NCBI GenBank assembly: GCA_016763755.1
Contig: JAESTD010000074.1
Span: forward strand, 1-33,961
Origin: Mucilaginibacter sp.
Lineage (GTDB): Bacteria; Bacteroidota; Bacteroidia; Sphingobacteriales; Sphingobacteriaceae
Length of the DNA stretch: 33,961 nt
Direction of reading: 5' to 3'
This document shows, piece by piece, positions 13,972 to 29,483 of this stretch; position 1 is the stretch's first letter; every line of letters starts with the position of its first letter. Both the position numbers and the translations under genes were made by a program. The notes beneath the pieces were generated by a model that was given only the letters and a program-made list of their open reading frames with translations, was not told the origin of the DNA and did no database searches.

Positions 13972-14072
13972 CGGTCTGATTAAAGGCTGAAAGGTACAAG
14001 TTTTCCTTAAAAGTAATTTTTTACTATTTTTAACGCGCCCATTTGGCAAACCCTAACCCCTTATCAGAACCT

Positions 14073-14429
14073 ATGAAAAAGCACCAGGGAGAAATCATAG
14101 AATATGTTGTTCGCCGCAACGGATACAACATCAGTGAACTGGCGAGAGCAATTGGGCTCAACAGGCGTACGTTGTACAATTACTTCAGATCACCATCAGT
14201 CAAAAGCAGCATCATTTACCGGATAGGAATTTTTTTGGGTCATGACTTCAGTAAAGAATTTCCGGAGTTGTTCACGGAAGGAGAGTTCCAAACCCGTTCA
14301 AAAGAATTAGTAAGAGGTGCCACCCGGCAAGAGCCATTCCGGGATGATGAGGCCATTTATAAAGCAAAGTATCTTGGGCTGCTCGAAAAATACCATGAAA
14401 TATTAAACTCACTATTGGAAACAAATTAA
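14073..14429 (+). CDS. Small helix-turn-helix protein
   Basis: This 118-aa protein has an N-terminal HTH at about residues 8-45: EYVVRRNGYNISELARAIGL, NRRTLYNYFRSPSVKSS, then IYRIGIFLGHDF. The pattern resembles Fis/XRE-like recognition helices. The C-terminal half is charged and helical (YKAKYLGLLEKYHEILNSLL), perhaps a dimerisation coiled coil. The frame is open back to a TTG at 14043; ATG 14073 is preferred. It is divergent from the small membrane protein gene and lies immediately before the two tandem hairpin elements. Targets are unknown. Confidence 0.7.
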   Translation: MKKHQGEIIEYVVRRNGYNISELARAIGLNRRTLYNYFRSPSVKSSIIYRIGIFLGHDFSKEFPELFTEGEFQTRSKELVRGATRQEPFRDDEAIYKAKYLGLLEKYHEILNSLLETN

Positions 14430-14479: not shown

Positions 14480-14577
14480 CTATATTGAACGCAATTCAAG
14501 TAAGTGCCTATGCATTTACATTGTGATAAAGTTTAGGTTAAAGTCCCTTGCAGCAAGTGTAAAGGGACTTTCTTTTT
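14480..14577 (+). ncRNA. Two-hairpin RNA element, copy 1 (candidate small RNA)
   Basis: Stem A is TAAGTGC-CTAT-GCATTTA (14501-14518), extended by G14500-C14519. After a ~21-nt linker comes stem B, AAAGTCCCTT (14540-14549) with AAGGGACTTT (14562-14571), a perfect 10-bp stem with the 12-nt loop GCAGCAAGTGTA. CTTTTT follows, as in an intrinsic terminator. A TATATTG -7-like motif sits at 14481-14487, 13 nt before stem A. Copy 2, 163 nt downstream, has the same architecture and loop with compensatory stem changes, so the structure itself appears conserved. Expression and function are unknown. It could instead be a structured leader or terminator. Confidence 0.55.
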
Positions 14578-14645
14578 GGCTTTCGTGGAAGTTATTGATT
14601 TAACAACAAATTAAATTTCTTGTGAACATTGTCTGAAAACTTTGC

Positions 14646-14740
14646 TAATTTGTAGCGTTGTTTTGAGTGTTGTAGCACTCACGTGTAATAAGATTGGAAT
14701 AGGAATCCCCGGCAGCGAGTGTTTGGGGATTTTATTTTTC
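14646..14740 (+). ncRNA. Two-hairpin RNA element, copy 2 (candidate small RNA)
   Basis: Stem A is TGAGTGT-TGTA-GCACTCA (14664-14681). The linker GTGTAATAAGATTGGAATAG resembles the copy 1 linker GTGATAAAGTTTAGG. Stem B is AATCCCC (14704-14710) with GGGGATT (14725-14731), plus a G-T closing pair, and has the 12-nt loop GCAGCGAGTGTT. TTATTTTT follows. A TAATTTG -7-like motif lies at 14646-14652, 11 nt before stem A. Against copy 1, stem A shows an A-T to G-C double change and two compatible changes. Stem B sequences differ almost completely yet both pair, while the loop GCAGCRAGTGT is kept. The remaining ~220 bp to the sigma gene shows no other feature. Confidence 0.55.
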
Positions 14741-14962: not shown

Positions 14963-15541
14963 TTGGCCAAACTAAAAAAATATCAGCTGCTTAGCGATGA
15001 TGACCTTATCACTTTGCTCAGGCAGAGCGATATTGAGGCATTCAATTCATTGCATGACCGGTATTACGGTATATTGTACGCACACGCATACAAGCGCTAT
15101 CCTCAGCGCGAAGAGATCCGTGATATGCTGCAGGAACTATTTGTATTGATCTGGAGCGGTCGGGAAACGATCAATTTTAATGATAATATCGCGGCATATC
15201 TATACACCGCAGTACGGAATAAACTGCTTAATATTTTTAAGCACAATAAGGTAAAAGATACCTACATCAATTCGTTCAACTTTTTTATTACGAATCATAG
15301 TTCTACTACAGATGATGATTTGCGTTTAAAAGAGTTGATTTCGCTGGTAGAAGCCGAGGTAAGCTCGCTGCCCAATCAAATGCGTGTCGTTTTTAACCTT
15401 AGCCGTAAGGATAATTTATCGCATCAGGAGATTGCTAAGGTTTTGAATATCAGTCCGCTGACTGTAAAAAAGCACGTCAATAATTCGCTCAAAATACTCC
15501 GTTTAAAACTAGGGCATCATTTTTTTATGATTTTTTTATAA
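14963..15541 (+). CDS. ECF-type RNA polymerase sigma factor of the polysaccharide locus
   Basis: This 192-aa sigma-70 family member of the ECF class directs RNA polymerase to the adjacent SusC/SusD locus. Region 2 spans about residues 20-88 (DIEAFNSLHDRYYGILYAHA, RDMLQELFVLIWS). Region 4 spans about 133-182 (SSLPNQMRVVFNLSRKDNLS, HQEIAKVLNISPLTVKKHV). The start is a TTG at 14963; no ATG lies near the N-terminal homology. It sits 78 bp before the FecR anti-sigma gene, the standard sigma/anti-sigma pair of Bacteroidota glycan loci. Confidence 0.93.
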   Translation: MAKLKKYQLLSDDDLITLLRQSDIEAFNSLHDRYYGILYAHAYKRYPQREEIRDMLQELFVLIWSGRETINFNDNIAAYLYTAVRNKLLNIFKHNKVKDTYINSFNFFITNHSSTTDDDLRLKELISLVEAEVSSLPNQMRVVFNLSRKDNLSHQEIAKVLNISPLTVKKHVNNSLKILRLKLGHHFFMIFL

Positions 15542-15619
15542 TTCCACTACGCCCTTACTGCCTTTGAGTTGTCATGGTTATCATTACAGGAGAGTTTCTT
15601 TTTCCTTTTATAACCAATT

Positions 15620-16747
15620 ATGCAACAAAAAGACCTTCAGAAACTACTGGAACGGTACGCCAATGGCAATGCTTCTGATGAAGAGAAAGCGCTTTTGGAA
15701 AGCTGGTACCTGCAACATGCGCCCGAGGTAAGCGATATTCCACCTACCCAGTTGGAAGAAGACCAGCAACGAAGCAAACGGTTATTAGCTTTAGTGATCC
15801 ATAGTGGACGCAGAACCAGGCTTTGGCCATCTCTTGCCATTGCTGCATCCATACTGTTGGTGGTGAGCGTAGCTGCTTATCTGTCGGTAGCACCAAAATC
15901 GACACATCTGTTGTTAGTAAAGCATCAGCCCAGGAAGCACGACTTTTTACCGGGCGGCAATAAAGCCACGCTTACGCTTGCCGGCGGGCAGGTGATTATG
16001 CTGGATGGCGCGCAGGATGGGAAACTGGCCAGCCAAGGAAATATCACAGTAAGTAAAACCGGCGACGGCACAATAAGCTATGCCGTCGGCAAAAATGCTG
16101 ATGAGATAAGTCACCAGGATATTTATAATACCGCTGCCACACCACGCGGGGGGGAATATCGATTTATTTTAGCCGACGGTAGCAGGGTTTGGCTTAACGC
16201 GCAATCGTCGCTGAAATTTCCGGTTAATTTTTCGGGTAAGGAGCGTAAGGTAGAGTTGACTGGGGAAGCGTATTTTGAAGTAGTCCATGATGCCTCCAAG
16301 CCATTCAGGGTGGTATCAAACGGGCAGGTTGTTGAAGACCTGGGTACCCATTTCAATATCAACGCCTATTCAACAGAAAATACTGTAAAAACAACGCTGT
16401 TAGAAGGTAGCATCCGTGTTTCGGCCGGTGGTAAAGGTCGGCTGATCATACCCGGCGAAATGTCAGAAATTAAAGACGGCGTTATCAAAGTAAGCGCAGT
16501 TGATGTTGAGGATGCTATTGCCTGGAAAAAAGGGTATTTCCATTTTAACGATAATACGATACAGGAAGTTTCACAGCAACTTGCACGCTGGTATGATGTG
16601 GATATTGAGTTTGAGGGCACCCCAACCAGCAGGCTGTTTTCCGGTGATATACCCAAAAATCTTACCGCGTCCCAAATGATAGATATTCTCAGCTTTAAAA
16701 AGGTCCACTACCGTCTGGAGGATAAAAAAATAATAATCATGCCTTAG
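15620..16747 (+). CDS. FecR-family anti-sigma factor with DUF4974 domain
   Basis: This 375-aa single-pass inner-membrane protein has a cytoplasmic N-terminal ~65 residues (LQKLLERYANGNASDEEKAL), which would hold the sigma factor, and one membrane helix at about 68-90 (LWPSLAIAASILLVVSVAAY). The periplasmic FecR domain starts at about 170 (TPRGGEYRFILADGSRVWLN, KVELTGEAYFEVVHD). A C-terminal DUF4974 domain follows (GYFHFNDNTIQEVSQQLARW, FSGDIPKNLTASQMIDIL). It would receive the signal from the STN domain of SusC through the periplasm and release the upstream sigma factor. Confidence 0.95.
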   Translation: MQQKDLQKLLERYANGNASDEEKALLESWYLQHAPEVSDIPPTQLEEDQQRSKRLLALVIHSGRRTRLWPSLAIAASILLVVSVAAYLSVAPKSTHLLLVKHQPRKHDFLPGGNKATLTLAGGQVIMLDGAQDGKLASQGNITVSKTGDGTISYAVGKNADEISHQDIYNTAATPRGGEYRFILADGSRVWLNAQSSLKFPVNFSGKERKVELTGEAYFEVVHDASKPFRVVSNGQVVEDLGTHFNINAYSTENTVKTTLLEGSIRVSAGGKGRLIIPGEMSEIKDGVIKVSAVDVEDAIAWKKGYFHFNDNTIQEVSQQLARWYDVDIEFEGTPTSRLFSGDIPKNLTASQMIDILSFKKVHYRLEDKKIIIMP

Positions 16748-16964
16748 TACCACGATCCAATTAAAACGATTAAACAAAAAAATTATGAAGAAAGAATTAC
16801 AAAGAAGTCCTTGAACCCATTTGCACATGTGCAACATCACCTGGCTCTAAAAAAAAGCGCACCCCGACGGCCATCGGGATGCGCAAATAATAGAGTTAAC
16901 CTTCCCGTATGAACGGGGATAATCTTTTTCGTCCAATTATCATTAACCCTAACATTACAAAAGT
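16748..16964 (+). promoter_or_regulatory. Structured susC leader: short ORF, palindrome and two hairpins
   Basis: The 217-bp gap between fecR and susC holds four ordered elements. A 9-codon ORF at 16785-16814 (MKKELQRSP) is followed by a perfect 14-bp palindrome, TTGCACATGTGCAA, at 16821-16834. A long hairpin at 16857-16884 (GCGCA and CCCGA pairing with TCGGG and TGCGC around one mismatch) comes next. The last is a short hairpin, CCCGT-ATGA-ACGGG, at 16904-16917, with CTTTTT shortly after (16924-16929). The second hairpin resembles a terminator. The arrangement suggests attenuation or terminator control of SusC/SusD expression, which is inference. Confidence 0.5.
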
Positions 16965-19900
16965 ATGAAATTATGTACTTTTTCGTCGTTGTTCCCTAAA
17001 CAACGGCAAAAAAAATTCCTATTGATTATGAAACTTGCTACAATGATGATGCTGACATTCCTTTTGCAGATTCATGCAAAGGGTTTCGGTCAGGTCGTAA
17101 GTTTAAATGAGCATAGAACGCCTTTAAAAAAGATATTTCGGGAGATCAGTAAACAAACAGGCTATACTTTTTTTTACGAATCGAAAGATGTAACTCAAAA
17201 AACCGTTGATGTAACGCTTACCAATGCCCCGCTGACCGATGTTTTGGTGGCATGCTTAAACAATACGGCTTTAACCTATAAAATTATTGGCAAAACCATT
17301 ATTCTGCAGCAGATCAGCGAAACCCTTGCCGAAAACAAAACTCAGGCTAAAAGGACCGCGCAGAAGGTTACCGGCCAGGTGATTGATGAAAAAGGCGCAG
17401 GGCTGCCGGGCGTAACCATCTCGCTAAGCAGCGGGAAACCCGTAGGCGTTTCGGGCGAAGGTGGTAAGTTTAGCGTCGCAGTACCCGATGGTCAAACCAT
17501 ATTGGTATTTACCTTCGTAGGCTTTGAAAAAAAGGAAGTAAAAATAACTACAGGAGAGCCGATGCTGGTCAGCCTCGCGCTGGCATCAAACGCTTTGCAA
17601 GAGGTGGTACTGGTAGGCTACGGCAGCCAAAGCAAAACAAAACTCGCCAGCGCATCATCAACCGTTACTGCAAAGGATTATAAAACTGCGGTGGTTACCA
17701 CTTTAGACCAGGCGCTACAAGGCCGCGCAACAGGTGTACAGGTTACCCAAAGTTCGGGCGAGCCGGGTTCAGACGCGGTGATCAGGATCAGGGGGAATAA
17801 CTCCCTTAGTGGGGATAATCAGCCTTTATATGTGGTTGATGGGTTTGTTATGCCGCCTTATGTCGAGGCCTCTTCAAACGCGTCCGGCTCTTTGCCGCAA
17901 AACGGTTTGGCAGGTATCAATCCCAATGATATAGAAAGCATTACTGTTTTAAAAGATGCTTCGGCCACCGCTATTTATGGCTCACGGGGTTCAAACGGTG
18001 TGATATTGATCAAAACAAAATCAGGGAAGGCAAACGATCAAAAGATCGAATTGGTGAATAAAACCTCTTTTGGAAATATCACCACACCATACAAAATGGC
18101 CGATTCAAAAGCCTACGCAGATCTGCTCAATCAGAGTTTTGTGTATATGAACGTGCCCGCGCCGTTCACCGCTCAGGATATCGAGAAGCTAAACTCATCT
18201 ACTGACTGGTTTAAAGGCATTACGCGCAACAGTTTAAGAGAAGATGTATCCCTAAATATATCGGGCGGTAGCCAGAAAACAACGTATTTCATCTCCGGGA
18301 ATTATTTGATGGATAAAGGCGTTATAAAGGCCTCGCAAAATAATCGTGCCTCTATACGCGCCAACATCAATAGTGATGTTACCCCATGGTATACCATAAG
18401 AGGGCAATTATCGCTATCGAAACAGAATACCGCCCGCGCTGTGTCATCTTCCAGAAGCTTTCCGGATAATGGCGGCGTAATTCTGGATGCTTTGAGGGCT
18501 TCGCCAATAGCCCCGCTTGACTATTTCGGGTATAACGGAGAGGGAATACCCGGATTTAGCGGTGGATATATTTTCTCTAATCCGCTGACAGAACTTACTC
18601 AAAAGACAGATAAAACGCTGAATGATTTTACCATTGTAAATTTTGAGAACGTATTTAAGATCATACCGGGCCTGCAATTAAACATCAACCTGGGAAGCAA
18701 CCAGACACTATCAAGGCGCCAGCTGTTTTATCCGCCCGTTACGGCCATCGGCTCAATACCTAAAGGAACTGGCAGCTACAATACCTCAAACACGAACAGC
18801 TATAATGTCAACGCCTATTTAAACTATATCAAGGATTTTGATGGCGGCCACAACCTGAATGTAACTACAGGTGTAGAATATAACAAACAAATTGTTGAGG
18901 TATTGAACACCAGCACATCAGGTTATGATATCCCTAAATTTGGTGTTTACAACATCGGCAGCGCGTCTATACAAAGCGTAGGGTCTGCCCGGCAAGACCG
19001 CACCATCCAATCTGCCTTCCTGCGTACCAACTATACCTACAAAGACCGTTACGTGCTGAATGCATCGCTGCGCGTGGATGGCGCATCGCCCTTTGCCGAA
19101 AATAAAAAGTACGGCGTATTTCCTGCAGTTGGTTTGGCCTGGAACCTTAACCGGGAAGATTTCATGAAAAATATCAGCTGGCTAACCAATACCAAGATCC
19201 GCTCGTCATACGGGCAGACCGGTAGCCAGGCCATTGCACCGTACAGCTCGCTCTCGCAGTATGGCAACGCATTTTATCAAACCGGGGCCAGCAGCACCAT
19301 CAACACCGTGTTGTTCCCGATCAGCCTGCCTAACGCTAACCTATCCTGGGAAAGAACCAAACAGCTGAATGTCGGAACGGATTTCAGCGTGCTGGATAAC
19401 CGCCTGAATGTGAGTTTTGATTACTATGATAAACGTACCGAAGGTTTGCTGCAGCAGCGGCAATTGCCAAGCCAAACCGGCTTCGGGTCTATCATTGATA
19501 ATTATGGGACAATGCGCAACAGAGGTATTGAGTTAACGCTTGGCGCGACCGTGATACAAGGACATAATTTTTCATTTGATACCCGTGTTACCTTCTCTAA
19601 AAATAAAAACATCCTGCTTGATCTGGGCGAATTTACCGCTCCGCAGTATGTTGGCATAGGTGGCAATTTACTGGGCGGTGTTTCGGGCATTTTGCAACCG
19701 GGTAAGGAGATAGGTTCAATATATGGCGAACGCGTTATAGGTTTAGTGCAAACCGGTGATATTGTTAACGGTGTACCCAACTATCCATATCCCGGCGATG
19801 CGACCAACCAGGTACCTGGCCAATGGAAATATGAAGATAAAAACGGTGATGGTAAAATAGATTTTGATGATGCCCAGGTGTTAGGTAAATCAAACCCTGA

Positions 19901-20402
19901 TTTTACCTACGGCTGGAACAATGATATCCGCTATAAAAACTTAGGTATCAATTTGTTTTTCACCGGCTCGCAGGGCAACTCGGTCGTAAACTTAACCCGC
20001 TTATATCTGAGCACAGGTATCGCCAACCTGGCCGGTGTATACTTCAATCAAACAAAAGACTGGTATCAAAACCGCTGGACACCAACAAACCCTACCAACG
20101 ATATCAGGTATCCCGGCGTTCAGAAAGCAATTTCCCTTAGTGATGTCAATAACTCCTACGTAGAAAATGCAAGTTTTTTCAGGTTAAAGACGGCGTCCGT
20201 TTATTACGATCTGAACTTGGGGAAATTTATCAAAAGCGCGCGGATTTTTGTGACCGGAACAAATTTGTTCACGATTACAAAATATACCGGCGCCGATCCT
20301 GAAGTGAGCTCTTTTGGACAGTCAATATTACAGCAAGGCATCGATTATGGCTCGTACCCTTCTTACAAAACCTATACTATCGGCCTTTCAGCAACCTTTT
20401 AA
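16965..20402 (+). CDS. SusC/RagA-family TonB-dependent outer membrane transporter with STN domain
   Basis: This 1145-aa outer-membrane importer of oligosaccharides works with SusD as its lid and is energised by TonB. In order it has a signal peptide (about 17-41), a secretin/TonB short N-terminal (STN) domain (about 45-115, REISKQTGYTFFYESKDVTQ), a carboxypeptidase-regulatory-like barrel (about 133-215, GQVIDEKGAGLPGVTISLSS), a plug (LKDASATAIYGSRGSNGVIL) and a 22-strand beta-barrel ending in GLSATF. The STN domain marks it as a transducer that signals to the FecR anti-sigma. The length is normal for the family and the frame is intact. Confidence 0.97.
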   Translation: MKLCTFSSLFPKQRQKKFLLIMKLATMMMLTFLLQIHAKGFGQVVSLNEHRTPLKKIFREISKQTGYTFFYESKDVTQKTVDVTLTNAPLTDVLVACLNNTALTYKIIGKTIILQQISETLAENKTQAKRTAQKVTGQVIDEKGAGLPGVTISLSSGKPVGVSGEGGKFSVAVPDGQTILVFTFVGFEKKEVKITTGEPMLVSLALASNALQEVVLVGYGSQSKTKLASASSTVTAKDYKTAVVTTLDQALQGRATGVQVTQSSGEPGSDAVIRIRGNNSLSGDNQPLYVVDGFVMPPYVEASSNASGSLPQNGLAGINPNDIESITVLKDASATAIYGSRGSNGVILIKTKSGKANDQKIELVNKTSFGNITTPYKMADSKAYADLLNQSFVYMNVPAPFTAQDIEKLNSSTDWFKGITRNSLREDVSLNISGGSQKTTYFISGNYLMDKGVIKASQNNRASIRANINSDVTPWYTIRGQLSLSKQNTARAVSSSRSFPDNGGVILDALRASPIAPLDYFGYNGEGIPGFSGGYIFSNPLTELTQKTDKTLNDFTIVNFENVFKIIPGLQLNINLGSNQTLSRRQLFYPPVTAIGSIPKGTGSYNTSNTNSYNVNAYLNYIKDFDGGHNLNVTTGVEYNKQIVEVLNTSTSGYDIPKFGVYNIGSASIQSVGSARQDRTIQSAFLRTNYTYKDRYVLNASLRVDGASPFAENKKYGVFPAVGLAWNLNREDFMKNISWLTNTKIRSSYGQTGSQAIAPYSSLSQYGNAFYQTGASSTINTVLFPISLPNANLSWERTKQLNVGTDFSVLDNRLNVSFDYYDKRTEGLLQQRQLPSQTGFGSIIDNYGTMRNRGIELTLGATVIQGHNFSFDTRVTFSKNKNILLDLGEFTAPQYVGIGGNLLGGVSGILQPGKEIGSIYGERVIGLVQTGDIVNGVPNYPYPGDATNQVPGQWKYEDKNGDGKIDFDDAQVLGKSNPDFTYGWNNDIRYKNLGINLFFTGSQGNSVVNLTRLYLSTGIANLAGVYFNQTKDWYQNRWTPTNPTNDIRYPGVQKAISLSDVNNSYVENASFFRLKTASVYYDLNLGKFIKSARIFVTGTNLFTITKYTGADPEVSSFGQSILQQGIDYGSYPSYKTYTIGLSATF

Positions 20403-20415
20403 AGCACATATCATC

Positions 20416-22004
20416 ATGAAAATTAAACATATAAAGGCATTAATGGTAACCGTTATTAGCCTTACCATTATACTTCCGTCTTGTAAAAAAAATTTACAGG
20501 AAGACCCCTATTCATCATTATCGGCAGATGCTGTATTTACCAACGAGGACGGTTTGAAAAAAGCTACCCTCGGTATTTATCAGGGCTTTACGTCTGATGC
20601 CTTTACGGCATGGTACCGTTTCGGGTTATCAGAAACAGGGCACCAGTATGCCGCGCAAGGCATATTCGGCGAGGCCTTCTGGGGCGATCAAAATAAATTC
20701 ATCGGCACATCCTCATCACAGGTTGCCGGAGAATGTAATTCCATCTGGTCTCAGGATTATAACATCATTGCCAGGGCCAATACCGTTATTGACAATGCCT
20801 CAAAAGCGGTTACTGATGCCGCTTTAGCTAGCCAATACATTGCGGAGGCCCGTTTTTTAAGGGGATTTACCTATTTTGATCTGGTAAGGCACTTCGGAGG
20901 TGTTCCTTTGGTTGATAAGCAGATCACCTCCTTAGGTCAAAGCGATCTGCTTTTCGGGCAGCGGGCTACCATTCAGCAAACCTATGATTTTATTGTGGCC
21001 GACTTACTGGCCGCTATTCCGAACCTGCCTGATAAGCGGGAAGGTAGTGATGTAGGCAGGGTAAGCGCGGGTGCAGCTAAAGCGATGTTGGGCAAGGTTT
21101 ATCTCAACATGGCAGGTAAACCGCTTAACCTTACGGCCAACTATCAAAAGGCGATAGAGATACTTAATCAAGTCGTTGGTCCGGCTAACGAGAGCAAATA
21201 CAATTTTTCGCTATTGCCGAATTTTAAGGACGTGTTCTCGTTCTCTAACGAAAGGAACCCGGAAATCCTGTTATCATTCAGCTGGAACTATACCACCACC
21301 AGCGGCGGTGCGATCACACCGTTCTTTTCCCTGCCGCGTAATTTTGTAAGTCCGGATGAGCAAACCTTTTATGGGCTTACCTATCAGTTTTATCAGTTGT
21401 TTGAAAACAAAGATACCCGGCGGGATCAAACCGTGGTCACCCGCTACAAATCGGTTAGTAGTGGTGATGGCGCGCTTGTTGGCGATAGTATTATTTATAA
21501 TGCTGGCCGCATGAAATATATCGATACGGTTACCCACACGGTTTTCGGCAATGCTACGGTAAACCAGGGTATATCCTATGCTAAGTTTGACAGAAGCCCA
21601 CGCGCAACGGGTAACCCGTTCAGTTTCTCGCAGGATGTGGTGATGCTGAGATTCTCTGATGTTTTATTATGCTTAGCCGAGGCAATGATCGAGAACGGCG
21701 ACCCGGCAAGCGCCTTACCGCTGATCAACCGGGTCAGGGCCCGCGCCGGTGCAACGCCTTACGTGGGACTGACAGCTATGCGCGACCGCGAAGGCTGGAG
21801 CGCCGCCTGGAATTAACGGGCGAGTTTACGACGGTATTTGACATCAGACGGTGGGGCACCTTGCAAGCCGAAATAGCAGCTATGGATCCCAAACAGGTAA
21901 GTGGCGGCGTAAAGGGCACCTACAATGCCAAATATGAGCTGTATCCTATTCCTTTGGCGCAAATACAAACTAATCCTAAGCTAACGCAAAATCCGGGTTA
22001 TTAA
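20416..22004 (+). pseudogene. SusD/RagB-family glycan-binding lipoprotein, frameshifted
   Basis: This surface lipoprotein binds glycan over the SusC pore. It begins MKIKHIKALMVTV with lipobox LPSC (C23). SusD_RagB regions follow (ADAVFTNEDGLKKATLGIYQ; YIAEARFLRGFTYFDLVRHF; VMLRFSDVLLCLAEAMIENG). The frame ends early (TAA 21814-21816) after LTAMRDREGWSAAWN. The +2-offset frame supplies the missing end, ERRLELTGEFTTVFDIRRWG to YPIPLAQIQTNPKLTQNPGY, stopping at 22004. The break lies at about 21781-21800; restoring one base gives a 529-aa protein. The gene starts 13 bp after susC. Either a sequencing error or a recent null allele would explain it. Confidence 0.9.
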
Positions 22005-22011
22005 ACACACG

Positions 22012-22052
22012 ATACTTGATCATAGCTGCGGCATGAAGCTGTGATCAAGTAT
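22012..22052 (+). terminator. Long hairpin between SusD and the downstream glycosidase genes
   Basis: ATACTTGATCATAGCT (22012-22027, first bases shared with the flank) pairs along 16 positions with AGCTGTGATCAAGTAT (22037-22052) around a 9-nt loop, with a single G-U pair. No long T run follows, so it may be a weak terminator, a transcript-stabilising or processing hairpin that separates susCD from enzyme expression, or an operator. Confidence 0.45.
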
Positions 22053-22123
22053 TGAATTTGATGCAGAGGAACTTATAGGCGATGTCTTCAGACTGTCCGT
22101 ATGCAATTTATAGCCTCACACCT

Positions 22124-23743
22124 ATGCTAATATATTATCAATACTCAAAAAGCTATTTTACAAGAAATATCACGGTGATCATGCTATATATGACGGCGAC
22201 TTGCAACCTGGTCTGTGGCCAGGTGCTTAATAAATCGTTTTACAAGCATTATATTGATAATTTCAATCAGCATGATCATGAAAATTATCAGCCGGGTGAT
22301 TTTAATAATAAAAAGGCCTGGAGTTTTCTTAAAGCCAATATTCCGTTTTTTGATTGCCCCGACAAGCAGTTGGAAAAGACCTATTACTTTCGGTGGTGGA
22401 CTTACCGTAAACATATACGGAATACGCCCGAAGGCTATGTTATAACGGAGTTTTTGCCCGATGTGCCCTGGGCAGGTAAATATAATGCGATCTCTTGCGC
22501 TGCGCCTCACCACTTTATGGAAGGCCGCTGGCTAAAAGAAGGCAATTATCTTAAAGAATATGCCAACTACTGGTTAACCGGAGCAGGTAAACTGACCTTA
22601 CGTAAGTATTCCGTATGGATTGCCGATGCACTTGTCAACTATACCAATGTGCACCCCGACGATGCCCTGTTGCATGAATTGTTTCCTTACCTGGAACAGA
22701 ACTTTAGGCAATGGGAAAAGGGACATCGTGATTCGACCGGCTTGTTCTGGCAGACAGACAACGCAGACGGAATGGAGGTCTCGATTTCCGGCTCTTACCC
22801 AAATGCTGATACAAAAGGATACAGGGCAACCCTAAACAGTTATATGTATGCCGAAGCGAAAGCCCTGATGCAAATCTCGCTTAGTTTAAAGGATCCTTTA
22901 AAAACCAGTTATTACCAAAAGGTAGCCGATAGTGTCAGGGAAAATATCAATCAAAAGCTTTGGGACAATCAGGCTCAGTTTTATAAAGTGATACCGCTTA
23001 ACAACAGGATGGCGTTTTCCAGGTCGTATGAATTGCATGGCTATACGCCATGGTATTTTAATATCCCACCGGCGGCTTATTCGATCGCCTGGAAATACCT
23101 GATGGACCCCCGGTATTTTTATGCACCTTACGGACCTACCAGTGCTGCCCGCAACGATCCGGATTTCAAAATTTCCTACCAGGGACATGAATGTCAGTGG
23201 AACGGCCCCAGCTGGCCCTTCGCCACGTCCATAACGTTGACGGCAATGGCCAATCTGCTGAATAATTATCAGCAATCCTATCTTTCAAAAGCCGACTTTG
23301 TAAGGTTACTGACCATTTACAGCCGGTCACATCGTATCACCTTAGAAAACGGGCAATCACAGCCCTGGATAGATGAAGATCTAAACCCTTTTACAGGCGA
23401 CTGGATAGCCAGGACGGTCTTGAAAAAAGCCGGGCATGATGAGCAGGCAGTGGAACGCGGAAAGGATTACAATCATTCCACATTTAATGATATCATCATT
23501 AATGACCTGATCGGGGTCCGTCCGGCAGCAACAGCTAACGTCATCATTAGCCCGCTTATACCTGCTAACAAATGGGATTACTACTGCCTGGATGATCTCA
23601 ATTTAAAGCATAAGCGCATAAGCATTTTTTACGATAAGACGGGCCTGCGTTATCACAGGCATAAGGGCTATTACATCCTGATTAATGGCAAAACTGTATT
23701 TAAAGCCAATACGCCCAAACGCGCCGTACTTGATCTGAAATAA
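22124..23743 (+). CDS. MGH1-like (alpha/alpha)6-barrel glycoside hydrolase
   Basis: This exported protein of about 539 aa has a signal-like N-terminus (ITVIMLYMTATCNLVCGQ). The body resembles (alpha/alpha)6 hydrolases of the GH63/MGH1-like group: TYYFRWWTYRKHIRNTPEGY, PWAGKYNAISCAAPHHFMEG, LFWQTDNADGMEVSISGSYP, GYTPWYFNIPP and QWNGPSWPFATSITL. These acidic-rich loops line the active site in the family. The substrate is not predictable; in this locus it probably removes a sugar from a rhamnose-containing glycan. The start is uncertain: ATG 22082 adds 14 residues before the signal, and a later ATG at 22181 would leave a minimal signal peptide. Confidence 0.78.
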   Translation: MLIYYQYSKSYFTRNITVIMLYMTATCNLVCGQVLNKSFYKHYIDNFNQHDHENYQPGDFNNKKAWSFLKANIPFFDCPDKQLEKTYYFRWWTYRKHIRNTPEGYVITEFLPDVPWAGKYNAISCAAPHHFMEGRWLKEGNYLKEYANYWLTGAGKLTLRKYSVWIADALVNYTNVHPDDALLHELFPYLEQNFRQWEKGHRDSTGLFWQTDNADGMEVSISGSYPNADTKGYRATLNSYMYAEAKALMQISLSLKDPLKTSYYQKVADSVRENINQKLWDNQAQFYKVIPLNNRMAFSRSYELHGYTPWYFNIPPAAYSIAWKYLMDPRYFYAPYGPTSAARNDPDFKISYQGHECQWNGPSWPFATSITLTAMANLLNNYQQSYLSKADFVRLLTIYSRSHRITLENGQSQPWIDEDLNPFTGDWIARTVLKKAGHDEQAVERGKDYNHSTFNDIIINDLIGVRPAATANVIISPLIPANKWDYYCLDDLNLKHKRISIFYDKTGLRYHRHKGYYILINGKTVFKANTPKRAVLDLK

Positions 23744-23800
23744 GAATGCATTCCGCTACGGTATTTAACAATAACATCAAGTATCCTAATTAAAAATATA

Positions 23801-24658
23801 ATGAAAGCTATCAAAACTATCCTATTGATCATATTCACTACCCTAATGACCCATCTTGCGCCGGCGCAGGATTTTAAAGTGCCGGACGTCGATGGCAGGG
23901 GTAAAACCGTCATACTTACTTTTGATGATGCCAGCCAAAGTCATTACAGCGTTATTCCTCAAATGCTAAAGCCTTACCATTTCGGCGCGACTTTTTACGT
24001 TTGCGAGTTTCCGCCTGATTTTGCCGACACCACCAAGTATATGAACTGGCGTCAGATAAAAGCTTTGTCAAAAATGGGTTACGAAATTGGCAATCATACG
24101 CGGTTCCATAGTAACGTGGCCGAATTAAAACCGCAGGAATTGGAAGCCGAACTCAGCTATATGGAGAACAAATGCCAGGAGTTGGGCATACCCAAGCCAT
24201 CAAATTTTGCCTATCCGGCATATTTTACTGACAGTGCAGCAGTTCCGGTCCTGAAACACCATGGCTATTTGACTGCGAGGATAGGTGGAGATAAAGCATG
24301 GCAACCGGGAGAAGATGATCCATATTATATTCCAAGCTTTGGTATCAGCGGAAATGTTCCACATGTCTTTTACGGAGCACTTGAACAGGCCCGGAAGGAT
24401 AATGTCATTTTATTTTGCATTCATGGAGTACCCGATAATGCCCATGACTGGGTCAATACGGAGCCGGCTTTATTCCGGTCATACCTCCGGTATTTGAATG
24501 ATCATCATTTTAAGGTCGTATCCATGCAGACTTATTTAAAATCTGCGGGCAAACGGATGAAACATCCGCTGAAAAACCAACCAAAAAATTCAGGAAATTC
24601 CTTTGATGTTATTTATCCCCTAAAAATCAGACAAGCGCATCAAACACGTCGCCAGTAA
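23801..24658 (+). CDS. Exported polysaccharide deacetylase (NodB/CE4-like)
   Basis: This 285-aa protein has a signal peptide (KTILLIIFTTLMTHLAPAQ) followed by a NodB-homology domain. Motif 1 is TFDD (T40-D43) and motif 2 is NHTRFHS with zinc-binding H99 and H103. A later FCIHGVPD segment is equivalent to motif 5. The canonical R-x-P motif 3 is replaced by FAYPAYF, a divergence seen in several subfamilies. It would remove acetyl groups from a glycan outside the cytoplasm. It lies 57 bp after the glycosidase gene and 28 bp before the esterase gene, consistent with one transcript. A basic C-terminal tail (RQAHQTRRQ) is unusual. Confidence 0.87.
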   Translation: MKAIKTILLIIFTTLMTHLAPAQDFKVPDVDGRGKTVILTFDDASQSHYSVIPQMLKPYHFGATFYVCEFPPDFADTTKYMNWRQIKALSKMGYEIGNHTRFHSNVAELKPQELEAELSYMENKCQELGIPKPSNFAYPAYFTDSAAVPVLKHHGYLTARIGGDKAWQPGEDDPYYIPSFGISGNVPHVFYGALEQARKDNVILFCIHGVPDNAHDWVNTEPALFRSYLRYLNDHHFKVVSMQTYLKSAGKRMKHPLKNQPKNSGNSFDVIYPLKIRQAHQTRRQ

Positions 24659-24686
24659 CCACATTCCAATAATTTAATAACTCAAT

Positions 24687-26186
24687 ATGATGTCAGGATT
24701 TATATTCTGTGTAAAGTTCAAAAACACGCTTTGCGCGCTCAGCATTATGGCTTTGGCGATGATGATGGATAGTACTTTTGCCGCTGCGCAAACGCGTTTG
24801 CCGGCTATTGTTGGTTCAAACATGATCTTACAAAGAAATCAGCCCGTTCCGGTTTGGGGCTGGGCAGCGCCGGGAGAAAAGATCGTTGTTGAATTCTCCG
24901 GGCAAGCTATAAAAGCGGTAGCCGGGAAGGATAGCCTTTGGCGAGTGAATCTGTCGCCATTGGAAGCCAGTACCGTTGCCAAGATCATGACGATCACTGC
25001 AGGGACAGCTAAACAAACCCTTAAAAATATCCTTGTCGGGGAAGTCTGGCTGTGTTCAGGACAATCTAATATGGAGTACCCGATGGATAAAGGCGAATTT
25101 AATGCTGCCGGTCCAAAAATTGGGGCCGACAGCGCGGCGCTTTCCCTGCTGACTGGGCACGCGGGTATACGGGTAGTAAAAATAGAAACGAAATATAGCT
25201 TACCCGATGCTACCACCACCGGCTGGCACGAATGCGATGGGAAGAATTTCGCCCGTTCCTCCGCAGTAGCATTTTACTTCGCCCGGCAGCTGCAAGAAAA
25301 ACTGCATGTACCGGTCGGCGTGATCACATCAGCATGGAGTGGCAGCCGGATAGAACCATGGGCGCCCCGCGAGGCTTTTGCCAAACTGCCGGTCTTCTCC
25401 GGCGAGTTAACGGAACAGGATAGCACGCTCGATGGCGAAGTTTTAGGAAAAATGTACCGAAGCCTTATTGCGCCCTTGATACCGTTTGGCATCAAGGGTT
25501 TCATTTGGTACCAGGGCGAATCCAACTGTTTGGCAGAAGAACATGATATGCGTTATGCTTACAAAATGCAGGCGACCATAGCATATTGGCGAAAGCAATG
25601 GGGGGCCGAACTTCCTTTTTATTACGTGCTGATCGCGCCCCATATGTACTCTTTATGGACTAACAAACCGCACACCGTAGAAACGCTGCCAGCTTTTTGG
25701 GAACAGCAAGTTGCGGCATCAGCGATACCCAATACCGGATTTATTGCTACAACAGATCTGGTAGATGACCTTAAAGATATTCATCCATCCTACAAATGGA
25801 CCGTAGGCCGGCGTCTGGCGGATCTCGCCTTAGCGAAAGCTTACCAAGTGAAACATTTAGCTTATCAATATCCGGTTTATGATCACCAAAAAATCATAAA
25901 AGATAAAATCGTGGTCTATCTTAAAAACGCAAAAGGCCTTAAAACCAGGGACGGCCGGCCACCGGATGAGTTCACTATTGCCGGCCGCGACAATGATTTT
26001 AAGCCGGCTGTAGCCATCATCAATGGAGAAACCATAACCGTGTATAGCCCTGAGGTAAAAGATCCCGTAAACGTACGTTTTGGCTGGAAGGAAACGGCCA
26101 TGCCTAATCTGATCAACGGCCATGGTTTGCCTGCCGTTCCTTTCAGATCAAATGGGATCCCATTTATTTATAGATCTATTCTATGA
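24687..26186 (+). CDS. Sialate O-acetylesterase-type SGNH esterase
   Basis: This 499-aa exported esterase has an N-terminal hydrophobic signal (about 12-35), a beta-domain (NMILQRNQPVPVWGWAAPGE) and an SGNH hydrolase fold. The nucleophile block is WLCSGQSNMEYP (S127), the oxyanion blocks include TSAWSGSRIEPW and GFIWYQGESN, and the catalytic D-x-H is D364/H366 (KDIHP). The family is named for sialic acid, but many Bacteroidota members in pectin and xylan loci act on other O-acetylated sugars, and no sialic-acid genes are present here. With the CE4 enzyme it points to an acetylated substrate. Confidence 0.9.
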   Translation: MMSGFIFCVKFKNTLCALSIMALAMMMDSTFAAAQTRLPAIVGSNMILQRNQPVPVWGWAAPGEKIVVEFSGQAIKAVAGKDSLWRVNLSPLEASTVAKIMTITAGTAKQTLKNILVGEVWLCSGQSNMEYPMDKGEFNAAGPKIGADSAALSLLTGHAGIRVVKIETKYSLPDATTTGWHECDGKNFARSSAVAFYFARQLQEKLHVPVGVITSAWSGSRIEPWAPREAFAKLPVFSGELTEQDSTLDGEVLGKMYRSLIAPLIPFGIKGFIWYQGESNCLAEEHDMRYAYKMQATIAYWRKQWGAELPFYYVLIAPHMYSLWTNKPHTVETLPAFWEQQVAASAIPNTGFIATTDLVDDLKDIHPSYKWTVGRRLADLALAKAYQVKHLAYQYPVYDHQKIIKDKIVVYLKNAKGLKTRDGRPPDEFTIAGRDNDFKPAVAIINGETITVYSPEVKDPVNVRFGWKETAMPNLINGHGLPAVPFRSNGIPFIYRSIL

Positions 26187-26246
26187 TCGAATAGGTAACC
26201 GATAGCTGTATCTGTTTATTACCACACCATTTAAGCGACCTGATAT

Positions 26247-29200
26247 ATGAAATTTTTGTCTCCGCTATTTGCTTTAGGCTTTGTACTGACCGGATACTTT
26301 GCAAGTGCACAGCCAACCGGCAAAAAATCAGCTTTTAACACACAGCTTCCGGATATAGTCAAGTCATTCGAGCACATCCCAGATGCTGTGCAAACATCCG
26401 TTTACTGGTATTGGATGTCCGGCAATATATCAAAGGAAGGCGTAGTTGCAGATCTTGAGGCGATGAAAAAAGCCGGGATCAACCGGGCGTTCATTGGCCA
26501 GATCGAGTGGCCCGGTACGCCTCCCGGCAAAGTTAAGCTATTCACGGAAGAATGGTGGGACATTTTACATCTGGCATTAAAAACAGCAACCAAACTCCAT
26601 ATTGAAATAGGAATGTTCAATGCGCCGGGCTGGAGTCAGTCCGGAGGCCCATGGATCAAACCTGAACAAGCGATGCGCTATCTCACATCATCTGAATTAT
26701 TTGTTAGCGGCCCGGGAACACTGGAAAAAAAACTGGTATTGCCTATTGAACAGTCCAATGATGTAAAGGTAATTGCTTATCCTGTACCGGCAGACTTCAA
26801 AAAAGACATTACCTCAAGCAAGCCTGTTATGACCTCGGTACCCAAAATCGATTCTCTGAACAATTTATTTGATGATGATCTTGCTACCTGGGTAAGTTTA
26901 ATCCCGAGCAAACGATATTTAATTGAATTTAATGTCGTGAAGCCCTACGCGGTAAGCAGTGCCACGTTTATACTGGTTAAAGAAGGTGCAAAATTGGAAA
27001 GTGATATTCAAGCTGAGATAAACGGACAGTACAAAACTTTTAAGCACTTTATAGTTGATCGCTCCAATCCTGTATTAAATGTAGGGTTTTCGCCTTTTGG
27101 TCCGGGAGCGGTAGCTGTTCCGTTAACCACAGCTAAGAGGTTCAGAATTTCATTAAATTCAACTACTAAAGCGATGCTCGCAGAGGTAAAGCTTTCGGCA
27201 ACACCGGTGGTCGAAAACTATCTGGAGAAGTCTTTGGGTAAAATGTGGCAGACGCCTTATTTATCCTGGAATTCTTATACTTGGGAAACCCAACCCGTTC
27301 AGCCATCAAAGCAAATCATAAATCCTGATGAAGTAATAGATATCTCTAAACACATGAGGGCCGACGGCACACTTTTGTGGAATGTTCCCGACGGGAATTG
27401 GGTTATTGAACGCATCGTGGCCACACCTACACGAACTAAAAATACGCCCGCACCAGCCGAAGCCACCGGTCTTGAAGTGGATAAAATGAGTAAAGCCAAT
27501 ATTGAGTTGCACTTTCATGCCTACATTGGGGAGATCCTGAAAAGAATCCCTTCAGAAGACAGAAGAACCTTTAAAGTAGTTGTTCAGGATAGTTATGAAA
27601 CAGGCGGACAAAACTGGACCGAAAACTTTATTTCAGAATTTATTCAGGAATATAAATACAGCCCTATCCCTTATTTTCCCACCCTTTCGGGTAAAGTGGT
27701 CGGCAACGAGGAAATGTCAAACAGGTTTCTTTGGGATATGAGGCGATTAATAGCGAATGATGTTTCATTCAAATATGTTGGTGGAATGCGTGAGATCTGC
27801 CATCGTTACGGCCTGACCACCTGGCTTGAAAATTACGGACATTTTGGTTTTCCCGGGGATTTCCTGCAATATGGCGGTCAGTCTGATGAGGTGGGGGGTG
27901 AATTTTGGAACGAAGGAAGCCTGGGAGATATTGAAAACAGGGCTGCTTCATCTGCCGCGCACATCTATGGAAAAAACAAAGTGTCCGGTGAATCCTGGAC
28001 GTCTGCGGGCAATGCTTTTGGCAGATACCCGGCGGCTCTTAAAATGCGGGGAGATCGTTTTTTTACCGAGGGCATCAACAATACCGTATTGCATGTTTAT
28101 ATCCATCAGCCGGATAGGAATAGTTTCCCGGGATTGAATGCTGAATTCGGCACCGAATTCAATCGTAAAAACACTTGGTTCGATCAAATGGATGTTTTTA
28201 CCGATTATATAAAAAGATGCAATATGATGTTGCAGCAAGGTACATACGTTGCTGATGCCGCATATTTTATAGGTGAAGATGCCCCGAGAATGACGGGAAT
28301 TACCGATCCTCCTTTACCAAAAGGCTACTCATATGATTATATCAATGGAGATGTGATCAAGGAGCGGCTAACGGTTAAGAACGGCAAATTGGTACTGCGT
28401 GGGGGTGTGAGTTATCGTGTACTGGTGCTGCCAAAACAAAAAACCATGCGGCCGGAATTATTGGCGCGATTAAAAGAGTTGATAGGCATGGGCGCCGTTG
28501 TGTTAGGACCGAAGCCTGAGCAATCACCCAGTCTTGCCGATTACCCTAATGCTGATCATGTTGTACGAACGATGGCTGATGAACTTTGGGGCAACGCCGA
28601 CGGAAAGAAGATAAAGGTACACCCATGCGGCAAGGGTGCTGTATTAGTGGGTATGCGCATGGAAGAGGTGATGAAGTTTTTAGCTATCGCTCCTGACTTT
28701 GAAGCTCAGGGAACCGATAGCATTCTTTTTATTCATCGCAAGTTAGATGGTGGTTCATTATACTTTATTTCAAATCAAAACCATAAGCCAGTGAATTTTA
28801 AGGCATTGTTTCGCGTAACCGGTAAAGTTCCGCAGCTTTGTGATCCGGTTACCGGCAAGATCCGGGAGTTACATGCTTACCAGCAAAACGATCACCATAC
28901 AACTATACCTATGCAGCTTGAAGCCGGTGAAAGTGCGTTTATTCTCTTTGATCGTAATAGCCGGGGAAACGGATCCAAAAAAACAAATTACCCCGTTCCG
29001 GCAGAAATTATCGATATTAAATTACCCTGGCTGGTAGCTTTCGATAAAAAGATGCGTGGCCCCGATCAAGTAAAATTTAAAACACTGGATGACTGGTCCA
29101 AAAACGATAACGACAGTATTCGTTACTATTCCGGTAAAGCCTTGTATAAAAATGAATTTTCTCTTGTCAAAAAAAAATCAGGGTTTAATTACCTGTTAGA

Positions 29201-29483
29201 ATTTGCCCGGATAGGGGTAATGGCGAAAGTAAAGATAAATGGTGTTGACGCAGGGGCCATGTGGACACCACCCTATCGTACAGACATCACGAGGGCCTTA
29301 AAAGCAGGTAAAAACAAGATCGAGGTTGAAGTAGTCAATACATGGATTAACCGGCTTTATGGGGATCATTTACTACCGCAGGCAGACAGGCAGCTATCAC
29401 CAGTGGTTCATCCTGAATACAAACTTGGTTTGGCACCTTCCGGGTTAATTGGGCCGGCGAGGATCAGCGTGGTCGGGTATTAG
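26247..29483 (+). CDS. GH106 alpha-L-rhamnosidase
   Basis: This 1078-aa exported enzyme removes terminal alpha-L-rhamnose from glycans. A signal peptide (about 1-21, LFALGFVLTGYFASAQ) is followed by the GH106 opening YWYWMSGNISKEGVVADLEA (53-72) and NAPGWSQSGGPWI (125-137). Central conserved parts include VVQDSYETGGQNWTENFISE, WLENYGHFGFPGDFLQYGG and KVSGESWTSAGNAFGRYP. The C-terminus is a beta-sandwich of sugar-binding type (YLLEFARIGVMAKVKINGVD, AGKNKIEVEVVNTWINRLYG). The length fits the family. It is the last full gene of the locus and the best clue that the target glycan contains rhamnose. Confidence 0.92.
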   Translation: MKFLSPLFALGFVLTGYFASAQPTGKKSAFNTQLPDIVKSFEHIPDAVQTSVYWYWMSGNISKEGVVADLEAMKKAGINRAFIGQIEWPGTPPGKVKLFTEEWWDILHLALKTATKLHIEIGMFNAPGWSQSGGPWIKPEQAMRYLTSSELFVSGPGTLEKKLVLPIEQSNDVKVIAYPVPADFKKDITSSKPVMTSVPKIDSLNNLFDDDLATWVSLIPSKRYLIEFNVVKPYAVSSATFILVKEGAKLESDIQAEINGQYKTFKHFIVDRSNPVLNVGFSPFGPGAVAVPLTTAKRFRISLNSTTKAMLAEVKLSATPVVENYLEKSLGKMWQTPYLSWNSYTWETQPVQPSKQIINPDEVIDISKHMRADGTLLWNVPDGNWVIERIVATPTRTKNTPAPAEATGLEVDKMSKANIELHFHAYIGEILKRIPSEDRRTFKVVVQDSYETGGQNWTENFISEFIQEYKYSPIPYFPTLSGKVVGNEEMSNRFLWDMRRLIANDVSFKYVGGMREICHRYGLTTWLENYGHFGFPGDFLQYGGQSDEVGGEFWNEGSLGDIENRAASSAAHIYGKNKVSGESWTSAGNAFGRYPAALKMRGDRFFTEGINNTVLHVYIHQPDRNSFPGLNAEFGTEFNRKNTWFDQMDVFTDYIKRCNMMLQQGTYVADAAYFIGEDAPRMTGITDPPLPKGYSYDYINGDVIKERLTVKNGKLVLRGGVSYRVLVLPKQKTMRPELLARLKELIGMGAVVLGPKPEQSPSLADYPNADHVVRTMADELWGNADGKKIKVHPCGKGAVLVGMRMEEVMKFLAIAPDFEAQGTDSILFIHRKLDGGSLYFISNQNHKPVNFKALFRVTGKVPQLCDPVTGKIRELHAYQQNDHHTTIPMQLEAGESAFILFDRNSRGNGSKKTNYPVPAEIIDIKLPWLVAFDKKMRGPDQVKFKTLDDWSKNDNDSIRYYSGKALYKNEFSLVKKKSGFNYLLEFARIGVMAKVKINGVDAGAMWTPPYRTDITRALKAGKNKIEVEVVNTWINRLYGDHLLPQADRQLSPVVHPEYKLGLAPSGLIGPARISVVGY

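Follow-up and report, generated by a model that had tools for sequence, protein, structure and literature searches.

The window, a stretch of 33,961 nucleotides of Mucilaginibacter DNA, carries two short hairpin elements in tandem. The question that this locus raises is what such a pair may do, and whether its role lies with the adjoining genes or elsewhere in the genome.

Two tandem elements in the window

Copy 1 (14500–14577) and copy 2 (14664–14739) share one layout, consisting of an upstream box, a stem A, an unpaired linker, a stem B and a T-rich tail. An earlier note had described them as two-hairpin elements with pairing stems, and direct reading and folding of both copies confirmed that these are real. 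In copy 1, hairpin A (14500–14507/14512–14519, + strand; reading and folding) has 8 bp and the loop CTAT, and the 5′ end of the RNA is predicted near here. The linker ATTGTGATAAAGTTTAGGTT (14520–14539, + strand) is the predicted seed and, by linker comparison, the common sequence of the genus with one change. Hairpin B (14540–14577, + strand; reading, folding and covariation) has 10 bp and 3 inner bp, with stem arms at 14540–14549/14562–14571 and a GCAAG pentaloop at 14553–14557, and is the predicted terminator together with its T-rich tail. In copy 2, hairpin A (14664–14670/14675–14681, + strand; reading and folding) has 7 bp and the loop TGTA. Its linker CGTGTAATAAGATTGGAATAGG (14682–14703, + strand) is diverged and partly common to copies on contigs C83 and C16 of the same genome. 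It is followed by a second predicted terminator with T-rich tail, a hairpin B of 8 bp and 3 inner bp (14704–14739, + strand; reading, folding and covariation) with arms at 14704–14711/14724–14731 and a GCGAG pentaloop at 14715–14719. Hence, the 7-bp stem A with a 4-nt loop that had been claimed for both copies holds for copy 2, whereas the stem of copy 1 has 8 bp; both loops are of 4 nt. Likewise, the tandem arrangement stands, but the copies are spaced by 162 nt from loop start to loop start rather than by 163 nt.

A TAnnTTG motif had been placed 11–13 nt 5′ of each stem A, and direct reading found it there on the + strand as promoter-like −7 boxes: TATATTG at 12 nt from copy 1 (14481–14487) and TAATTTG at 11 nt from copy 2 (14646–14652). 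Folding was more stable than that of shuffled sequences, with z = −2.77 for copy 1 and −2.53 for copy 2 (equally good shuffles 2/200 and 4/200). The reverse strands of both copies folded about equally well (z = −2.53 and −2.47), and the + strand was therefore assigned from the T-tails and the boxes. By reading and folding, hairpin B and its T-tail are terminator-like; a generic terminator scan, of which the rule takes loops of 3–8 only, reported no sites in the window.

A multicopy family in Mucilaginibacter

Thirteen copies from the window's own genome were aligned to build a covariance model of 63 positions. In this genome the model gave 28 matches at E ≤ 1 and 21 at E ≤ 1e-4, of which the 13 training copies match by construction. 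Contig C16 has four copies in a head-to-tail row, and a TAnnTTG box is evident at three of these. The search that the earlier note had proposed was then extended to 60 genomes, and all 37 Mucilaginibacter genomes matched, the 36 other than the window's own having between 1 and 19 matches each. Among the same 60 genomes, 7 of the 23 from other families of the class also matched, but only weakly (E 0.0055–0.026). When 201 genomes of the family were searched, 75 matched at E ≤ 0.01, comprising 40 rows from Mucilaginibacter and 35 from other genera; the latter were mostly weak, the best having E 1e-10 and 9e-8. The rows listed leave out 106 that had no match. The exact hairpin occurred in 21 records, 17 of them from Mucilaginibacter, and the loci L089/L113 and L090/L122 are identical to M. 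roseus and M. aquatilis records over the printed stretch; copies of both species have the common linker described below. Matches to the hairpin pattern in Arthrobacter (4 of the 21 loci) were rejected, as they share the loop but set it in a different sequence that lacks linker and T-tail; a single viral match was rejected on the same grounds.

At the gathering score, Rfam returned no match for the window or for 18 other loci. The weak matches to FopS, ctRNA_p42d, manA-II, His_leader and BTnc049 lie far below their cut-offs and were rejected. No description of this family was found among the literature matches listed. The suggestion of a duplicated small RNA whose structure is under selection is supported, and extends to a genus-wide multicopy family without an Rfam gathering match.

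Hairpin B and its cap

The earlier note had laid its stress on a 12-nt loop shared by both copies. This loop is really a 3-bp covarying inner stem and a bulge that close a GCRAG pentaloop, and the stress lay in the wrong place: no single strand is as constrained as the linker, and the loop forms a small structured cap. The closing pairs of the cap could be parsed in 85 of the 88 copies compared (CA/TG in 71, CG/CG in 7, GA/TC in 5, TG/CA in 1 and unpaired AA/TG in 1). Because these pairs change together, the cap is read as a structured part, and the loop was rejected as a seed. Two copies have the cap GCGAT instead of GCRAG. With one mismatch allowed, the loop pattern matched twice in the window against 0.43 expected, which is weak on its own since 8 of 100 shuffles reach two matches; genome-wide it gave 65 + 66 matches compared with 19 + 29 in the control. 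The exact loop occurs in 11 places in the genome, nine of which are inside this hairpin by inspection.

Covariation had been taken as a sign of selection on RNA structure, and hairpin B supports this. In the alignment of 13 copies, six of its pairs were changed on both sides compared with 2.2 in shuffled alignments (0/500 reach six), although the count of further pair types was not unusual (72/500 shuffles). In an alignment of 66 rows, RNAalifold showed double changes in 9 of the 12 pairs of hairpin B, although at each of two pairs close to the cap 20 rows have a break or a gap. Stem A was not drawn from this alignment, in which MAFFT leaves the stem A arms out of register.

Stem A and the linker

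Stem A was judged copy by copy. All 68 copies with the common linker have at least five predicted pairs in stem A (mean z −3.9), and in 66 of them at most 5 of 100 shuffles were as good. The same 68 copies contain 41 different arms. By these comparisons, the sequence on either side of the linker is free while the predicted pairing is kept.

The linker itself is strongly conserved. An exact 13-mer, GATAAGGTTTAGG, within TTGTGATAAGGTTTAGGTT, was present in the linker of 66 of 88 distinct copies, a biased sample that consists of the window's own genome and mostly the best-scoring loci of other genomes (30 per search). The columns flanking the 13-mer were not selected on, and of the 66 copies they show T in 58, T in 66, G in 65 and T in 65 before it, and T in 66 and T in 64 after it. 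Usually AA precedes TTGTGATAAGGTTTAGGTT, with A in 42 and 55 of the 66. Among the 25 copies listed for the window's own genome, the exact 17-mer GTGATAAGGTTTAGGTT occurs in five and differs by one letter in three, including copy 1; the other linkers, that of copy 2 included, have diverged. Hence, the common linker is in the minority in the window's own genome. A search with the 18-nt linker, allowing at most one mismatch, found it in 8 of 392 genomes of the phylum (3 matches in the reversed control). It was present in 6/6 Mucilaginibacter genomes and in 2/386 of the others, with an exact occurrence in a different genus of the family and one with a single mismatch elsewhere.

A TAN2-3TTG box lies upstream of 36 of the 68 copies with the common linker, compared with a mean of 9.3 and a maximum of 16 in 1000 shuffles. 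The first promoter test, with TANNTTTG and one mismatch, had given 35/68 compared with 18.3 in shuffled sequences (maximum 27).

Other RNA genes with the same linker

Further occurrences of the linker were searched for by its complement after two non-T letters, a pattern that excludes most known copies. This search found 32 places in 27 of 121 Mucilaginibacter genomes and none with the reversed control. By inspection, 20 of the 30 resulting loci are further RNA genes on the opposite strand. Nine loci (L218, L221, L224, L225, L231, L232, L236, L239 and L241) have a second architecture, in which a hairpin comes after the linker and a separate terminator of the CCCCTGCCGCCAGGCAGGGG type (CCCCTGCCGCC type) after the hairpin; L237, cut by a contig end, is probably a tenth case. 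Six of the second-architecture loci lie upstream of and antisense to a gene of 292 aa. Rfam returned no match up to E 5 for the one second-architecture locus submitted. A third architecture, a hairpin with an AGCGAGT cap and then a separate terminator, was found in L242, L243 and L247 (L210 is the same place as L243). That three architectures carry one linker points to the linker as the active part.

Candidate target sites

A relaxed search with the complement VVNNNCCTAAACCTTATCAC found 60 places in 45 of the 121 Mucilaginibacter genomes, and none with the reversed control. Together with the 30 loci of the previous search, 14 new loci were examined, 44 in all; no locus was available for 16 of the 60 places. 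Of the 44, 22 were recognized by eye as RNA genes and dropped, and the other 22 were kept as candidate sites. In nine of these 22, an ATG that opens an ORF of at least 60 aa follows in sense after 1–20 nt (counted within 25 nt), whereas only 8.0% of all control positions and 7.4% of the intergenic ones in the same loci fall within 25 nt of an ATG. The binomial p is 2.6e-5 against all and 1.4e-5 against intergenic positions, with some loci not independent. The other 13 sites are more than 25 nt from an ATG, that of L219 being inside a gene. The enrichment depends on how RNA genes are called. For the first 30 loci, a script rule gave 16 RNA genes and 14 sites compared with 20 and 10 by eye, with six disagreements. 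Sites near an ATG were 3/14 under the script rule (p 0.10), 4/10 under the by-eye rule (p 0.006) and 5/12 among the new loci (p 0.002).

The candidate sites precede different kinds of genes. In L227 (1518–3017), an exact complement of the linker lies 1 nt before the ATG of a Nif11 peptide gene, with a DUF4135 gene next; the pair reads as a lanthipeptide precursor and its synthetase. Related proteins (24% identical) of different genomes, in L235 and L245, have the site at +12 and +10. In L246 and L299, proteins of 90 and 95 aa (62% identical) follow an ssb-like gene, by reading, with a site at +10 in one genome and two tandem sites at +59 in the other. The protein of L304, HNH-like by reading and without a Pfam match, has its site at +5, and a protein of the window's own genome that is 42% identical to it (L204) has an exact one at +8. 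An ORF with a weak ABC2-membrane match also carries a site at +8. In L222 and L226 (96%), from two genomes, the site comes after a KduI-family gene, with the next start at +45 in one and a possible GTG at +23 in the other. One exact site, in L233, lies between a gene that reads as fecR-like and a SusC-type gene. More exact sites, ahead of ORFs of 308 and 443 aa, came from a search preselected for ATG.

Within the window's own genome, SusC genes are weakly supported as a general target: pairing with 29 SusC start regions was weakly better than that of shuffled seeds, 9/200 of which were as good. The window genes were not supported as targets of the two window copies, as the 21 gene starts tested showed no convincing pairing with either linker (best-site P 0.07 and 0.46). 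Leaders of helix-turn-helix paralogues (L278–L296) gave a mean duplex energy of −11.3 with the common linker compared with −9.4 for shuffled seeds, 3/300 of which were as low; this test used 18 usable of 20 loci and mononucleotide shuffles, and is a lead only. The window has such a gene, and its leader (14023–14072) contains AAACCCTAACCCCTTATCAG directly before the ATG, so that this helix-turn-helix neighbour may itself be a target of the linker.

Neighbouring genes

The helix-turn-helix gene (14073–14429, + strand) encodes a small protein and adjoins copy 1. Genes like it gave 24 matches in the own genome. Six contigs have such a gene and an RNA copy no more than 2 kb apart, and two of the RNA copies concerned are weak matches (C270, E 0.003; C86, E 0.13). 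Neighbours of other copies could be compared in the 68 of 95 loci that could be oriented. A single conserved gene, which has no NCBIfam or Pfam match and is GreA-like by its letters, comes after the RNA gene at 15 loci in other genomes. An RRM gene comes third in 12 of the 15 (L062, L071, L075, L078, L079, L084, L097, L251, L259, L263, L266 and L267); it is absent from the stretch in L086 and L101, and L074 is cut short. The one RRM protein that was scored matched NF058537 with 119.5 bits (cut-off 100). On C111 of the window's own genome, the RNA copy precedes the same GreA-like gene, after which the contig ends. Other copies follow conjugative-transposon or phage/plasmid-like genes, with TraK and TIGR03299 above the NCBIfam cut-offs and TraM, a partial sequence, below its own.

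Downstream of the two window copies lies a polysaccharide-utilisation locus (14963–29483) with genes for an ECF sigma factor, FecR, a SusC-type receptor, SusD, an MGH1-like glycoside hydrolase, a SASA esterase and a GH106 rhamnosidase. The own genome has 57 SusC-family matches (TIGR04056), 51 over the cut-off outright and one more when counted with its neighbours, a large glycan-uptake repertoire as judged from these matches. A structured regulator upstream of the ECF-sigma locus had been suggested, but as a cis function this is unsupported: the sigma ORF follows the terminator-like ends at 386 and 224 nt, and the genes beside other copies are unrelated, among them conjugative-transposon genes, the pair that ends in an RRM gene and others.

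Proposed function and alternative explanations

Our preferred reading, which we regard as probable, is that the copies are multicopy small-RNA genes of which the RNAs act in trans, the linker pairing before start codons and blocking ribosome binding. Each copy would be transcribed as an RNA of ~80 nt that starts at hairpin A and is ended by hairpin B. Its linker would pair with mRNA directly before the start codon and block access of the ribosome, such that translation is repressed, and the RRM protein may be a partner. Copy 1 would act through the common linker with one change, whereas copy 2 keeps the architecture with a different linker and would have other targets. An accessible conserved seed and complementary mRNA sites, which together generally characterize trans-acting sRNAs, are both present as far as sequence can tell (9/22 sites, with RNA genes dropped by inspection). 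Exact matches of at least 17 nt are long for bacterial trans-acting RNAs. Our confidence was lowered because the linkers of the window's own genome have mostly diverged and because the script rule for RNA genes disagrees.

A conserved single-stranded motif in many copies per genome could also be a binding site for a protein such as the RRM protein, of which the gene lies downstream of one copy in 12 genomes (one scored, NF058537). The RNAs would then be protein sponges rather than antisense RNAs. We consider this unlikely, as a sponge would give no reason to expect the exact complement of the linker just ahead of start codons on the mRNA strand. Both roles are compatible, however, since RbpB of Bacteroides binds FopS RNAs and counteracts their pairing (PMC11697453). 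It is also conceivable that the start-codon matches are decayed RNA genes or generic leader sequence instead of targets. Leaders in Bacteroidota are rich in A, and the exact match of the own genome (L132) was scored weakly as an RNA by the model (18.9 bits, E 0.83). Yet the counted sites have no hairpin B upstream by inspection, the reversed pattern had no matches in 121 genomes, and the site recurs at +1 to +20 before different genes, which makes this explanation rather improbable.

Copies do lie upstream of genes, and the RRM-linked copy is co-directional with its neighbour in 12 loci, as would be expected of cis-acting attenuators or leaders of the downstream genes. However, hairpin B and the T-tail form an apparent end point, copies occur in tandem arrays, neighbours vary between copies and RNAalifold gave no alternative structure, so that a cis role is very improbable. 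Least credible is that the copies are REP-like or element-end hairpins, mobile or repetitive DNA with no function as RNA, even though copy number varies and several copies have conjugative-transposon or phage/plasmid-like genes beside them. Passive repeats would not be expected to show compensatory changes in hairpin B, a stem A that is kept despite its letter changes, the promoter-like box in 36/68 copies, a common linker between free stems and complements before start codons on the sense strand.

The trans-acting reading can be taken a step further, though only tentatively, and we regard the result as possible rather than probable: a genus-wide network of translation control built on one antisense word of 17–19 nt. 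Such a network would comprise RNA genes of at least three architectures, as many as about two dozen in a genome, and scattered mRNAs with a perfect complement, many with the site right before the start. These mRNAs would include those of a lanthipeptide precursor, a SusC-type transporter (in its leader), a KduI-linked gene and membrane proteins. A protein of the RbpB kind would tune it, conjugative elements would carry extra copies, and diverged copies such as copy 2 would be new seeds in the making. To our knowledge, multicopy sRNA families in which the seed has been defined are scarce in Bacteroidota outside Bacteroides. The present family, which belongs to environmental bacteria, offers a seed, candidate targets with exact sites and a candidate protein as partner. 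It thereby becomes directly testable, in a second and distant group, whether Bacteroidota use same-seed RNA families and RRM proteins to control their surface and carbohydrate genes.

Comparison with known systems

Weak similarity to ctRNA_p42d (RF00489), a plasmid antisense RNA, is confined to hairpin B, with 20.3 bits for copy 2 and 16 bits for L089 compared with a gathering score of 50. GibS of Bacteroides thetaiotaomicron resembles the family in its seed-based antisense action, binding at translation starts and association with RbpB (PMC11697453). In contrast, that paper describes it as one RNA that has two seeds (R1, R2) and a promoter with the PM2 motif, and this description sets it apart.

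The closest parallel is FopS of Bacteroides thetaiotaomicron (RF04319), as presented in PMC11697453. Both are sets of paralogous multicopy RNAs, 14 there and 21 here at E ≤ 1e-4, with a terminator hairpin and a conserved unpaired seed. Pairing at the translation initiation region is shown there and inferred here, and an RRM protein is bound there and encoded near one copy here. FopS RNAs were shown experimentally to repress translation initiation in Bacteroides (PMC11697453), and by this analogy antisense repression of translation initiation is the likely mechanism in Mucilaginibacter. FopS represses SusC-like transporters at the translation start; here, pairing with SusC start regions was weakly better than that of shuffled seeds, as given above. 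Nevertheless, copy 1 scores 20.1 bits compared with the FopS gathering score of 56, and L089 gives no match up to E 5. The Rfam alignment sets the linker against the 5′ part of FopS, with similar letters but without a significant score, and the FopS seed appears to differ from the linker. That 5′ part is described as single-stranded without a 5′ hairpin (PMC11697453), whereas hairpin A is predicted here in 68/68 copies. Hence, as judged from sequence and predicted structure, the Mucilaginibacter family is one that would work like FopS, yet is not a member of it by score or by structure.
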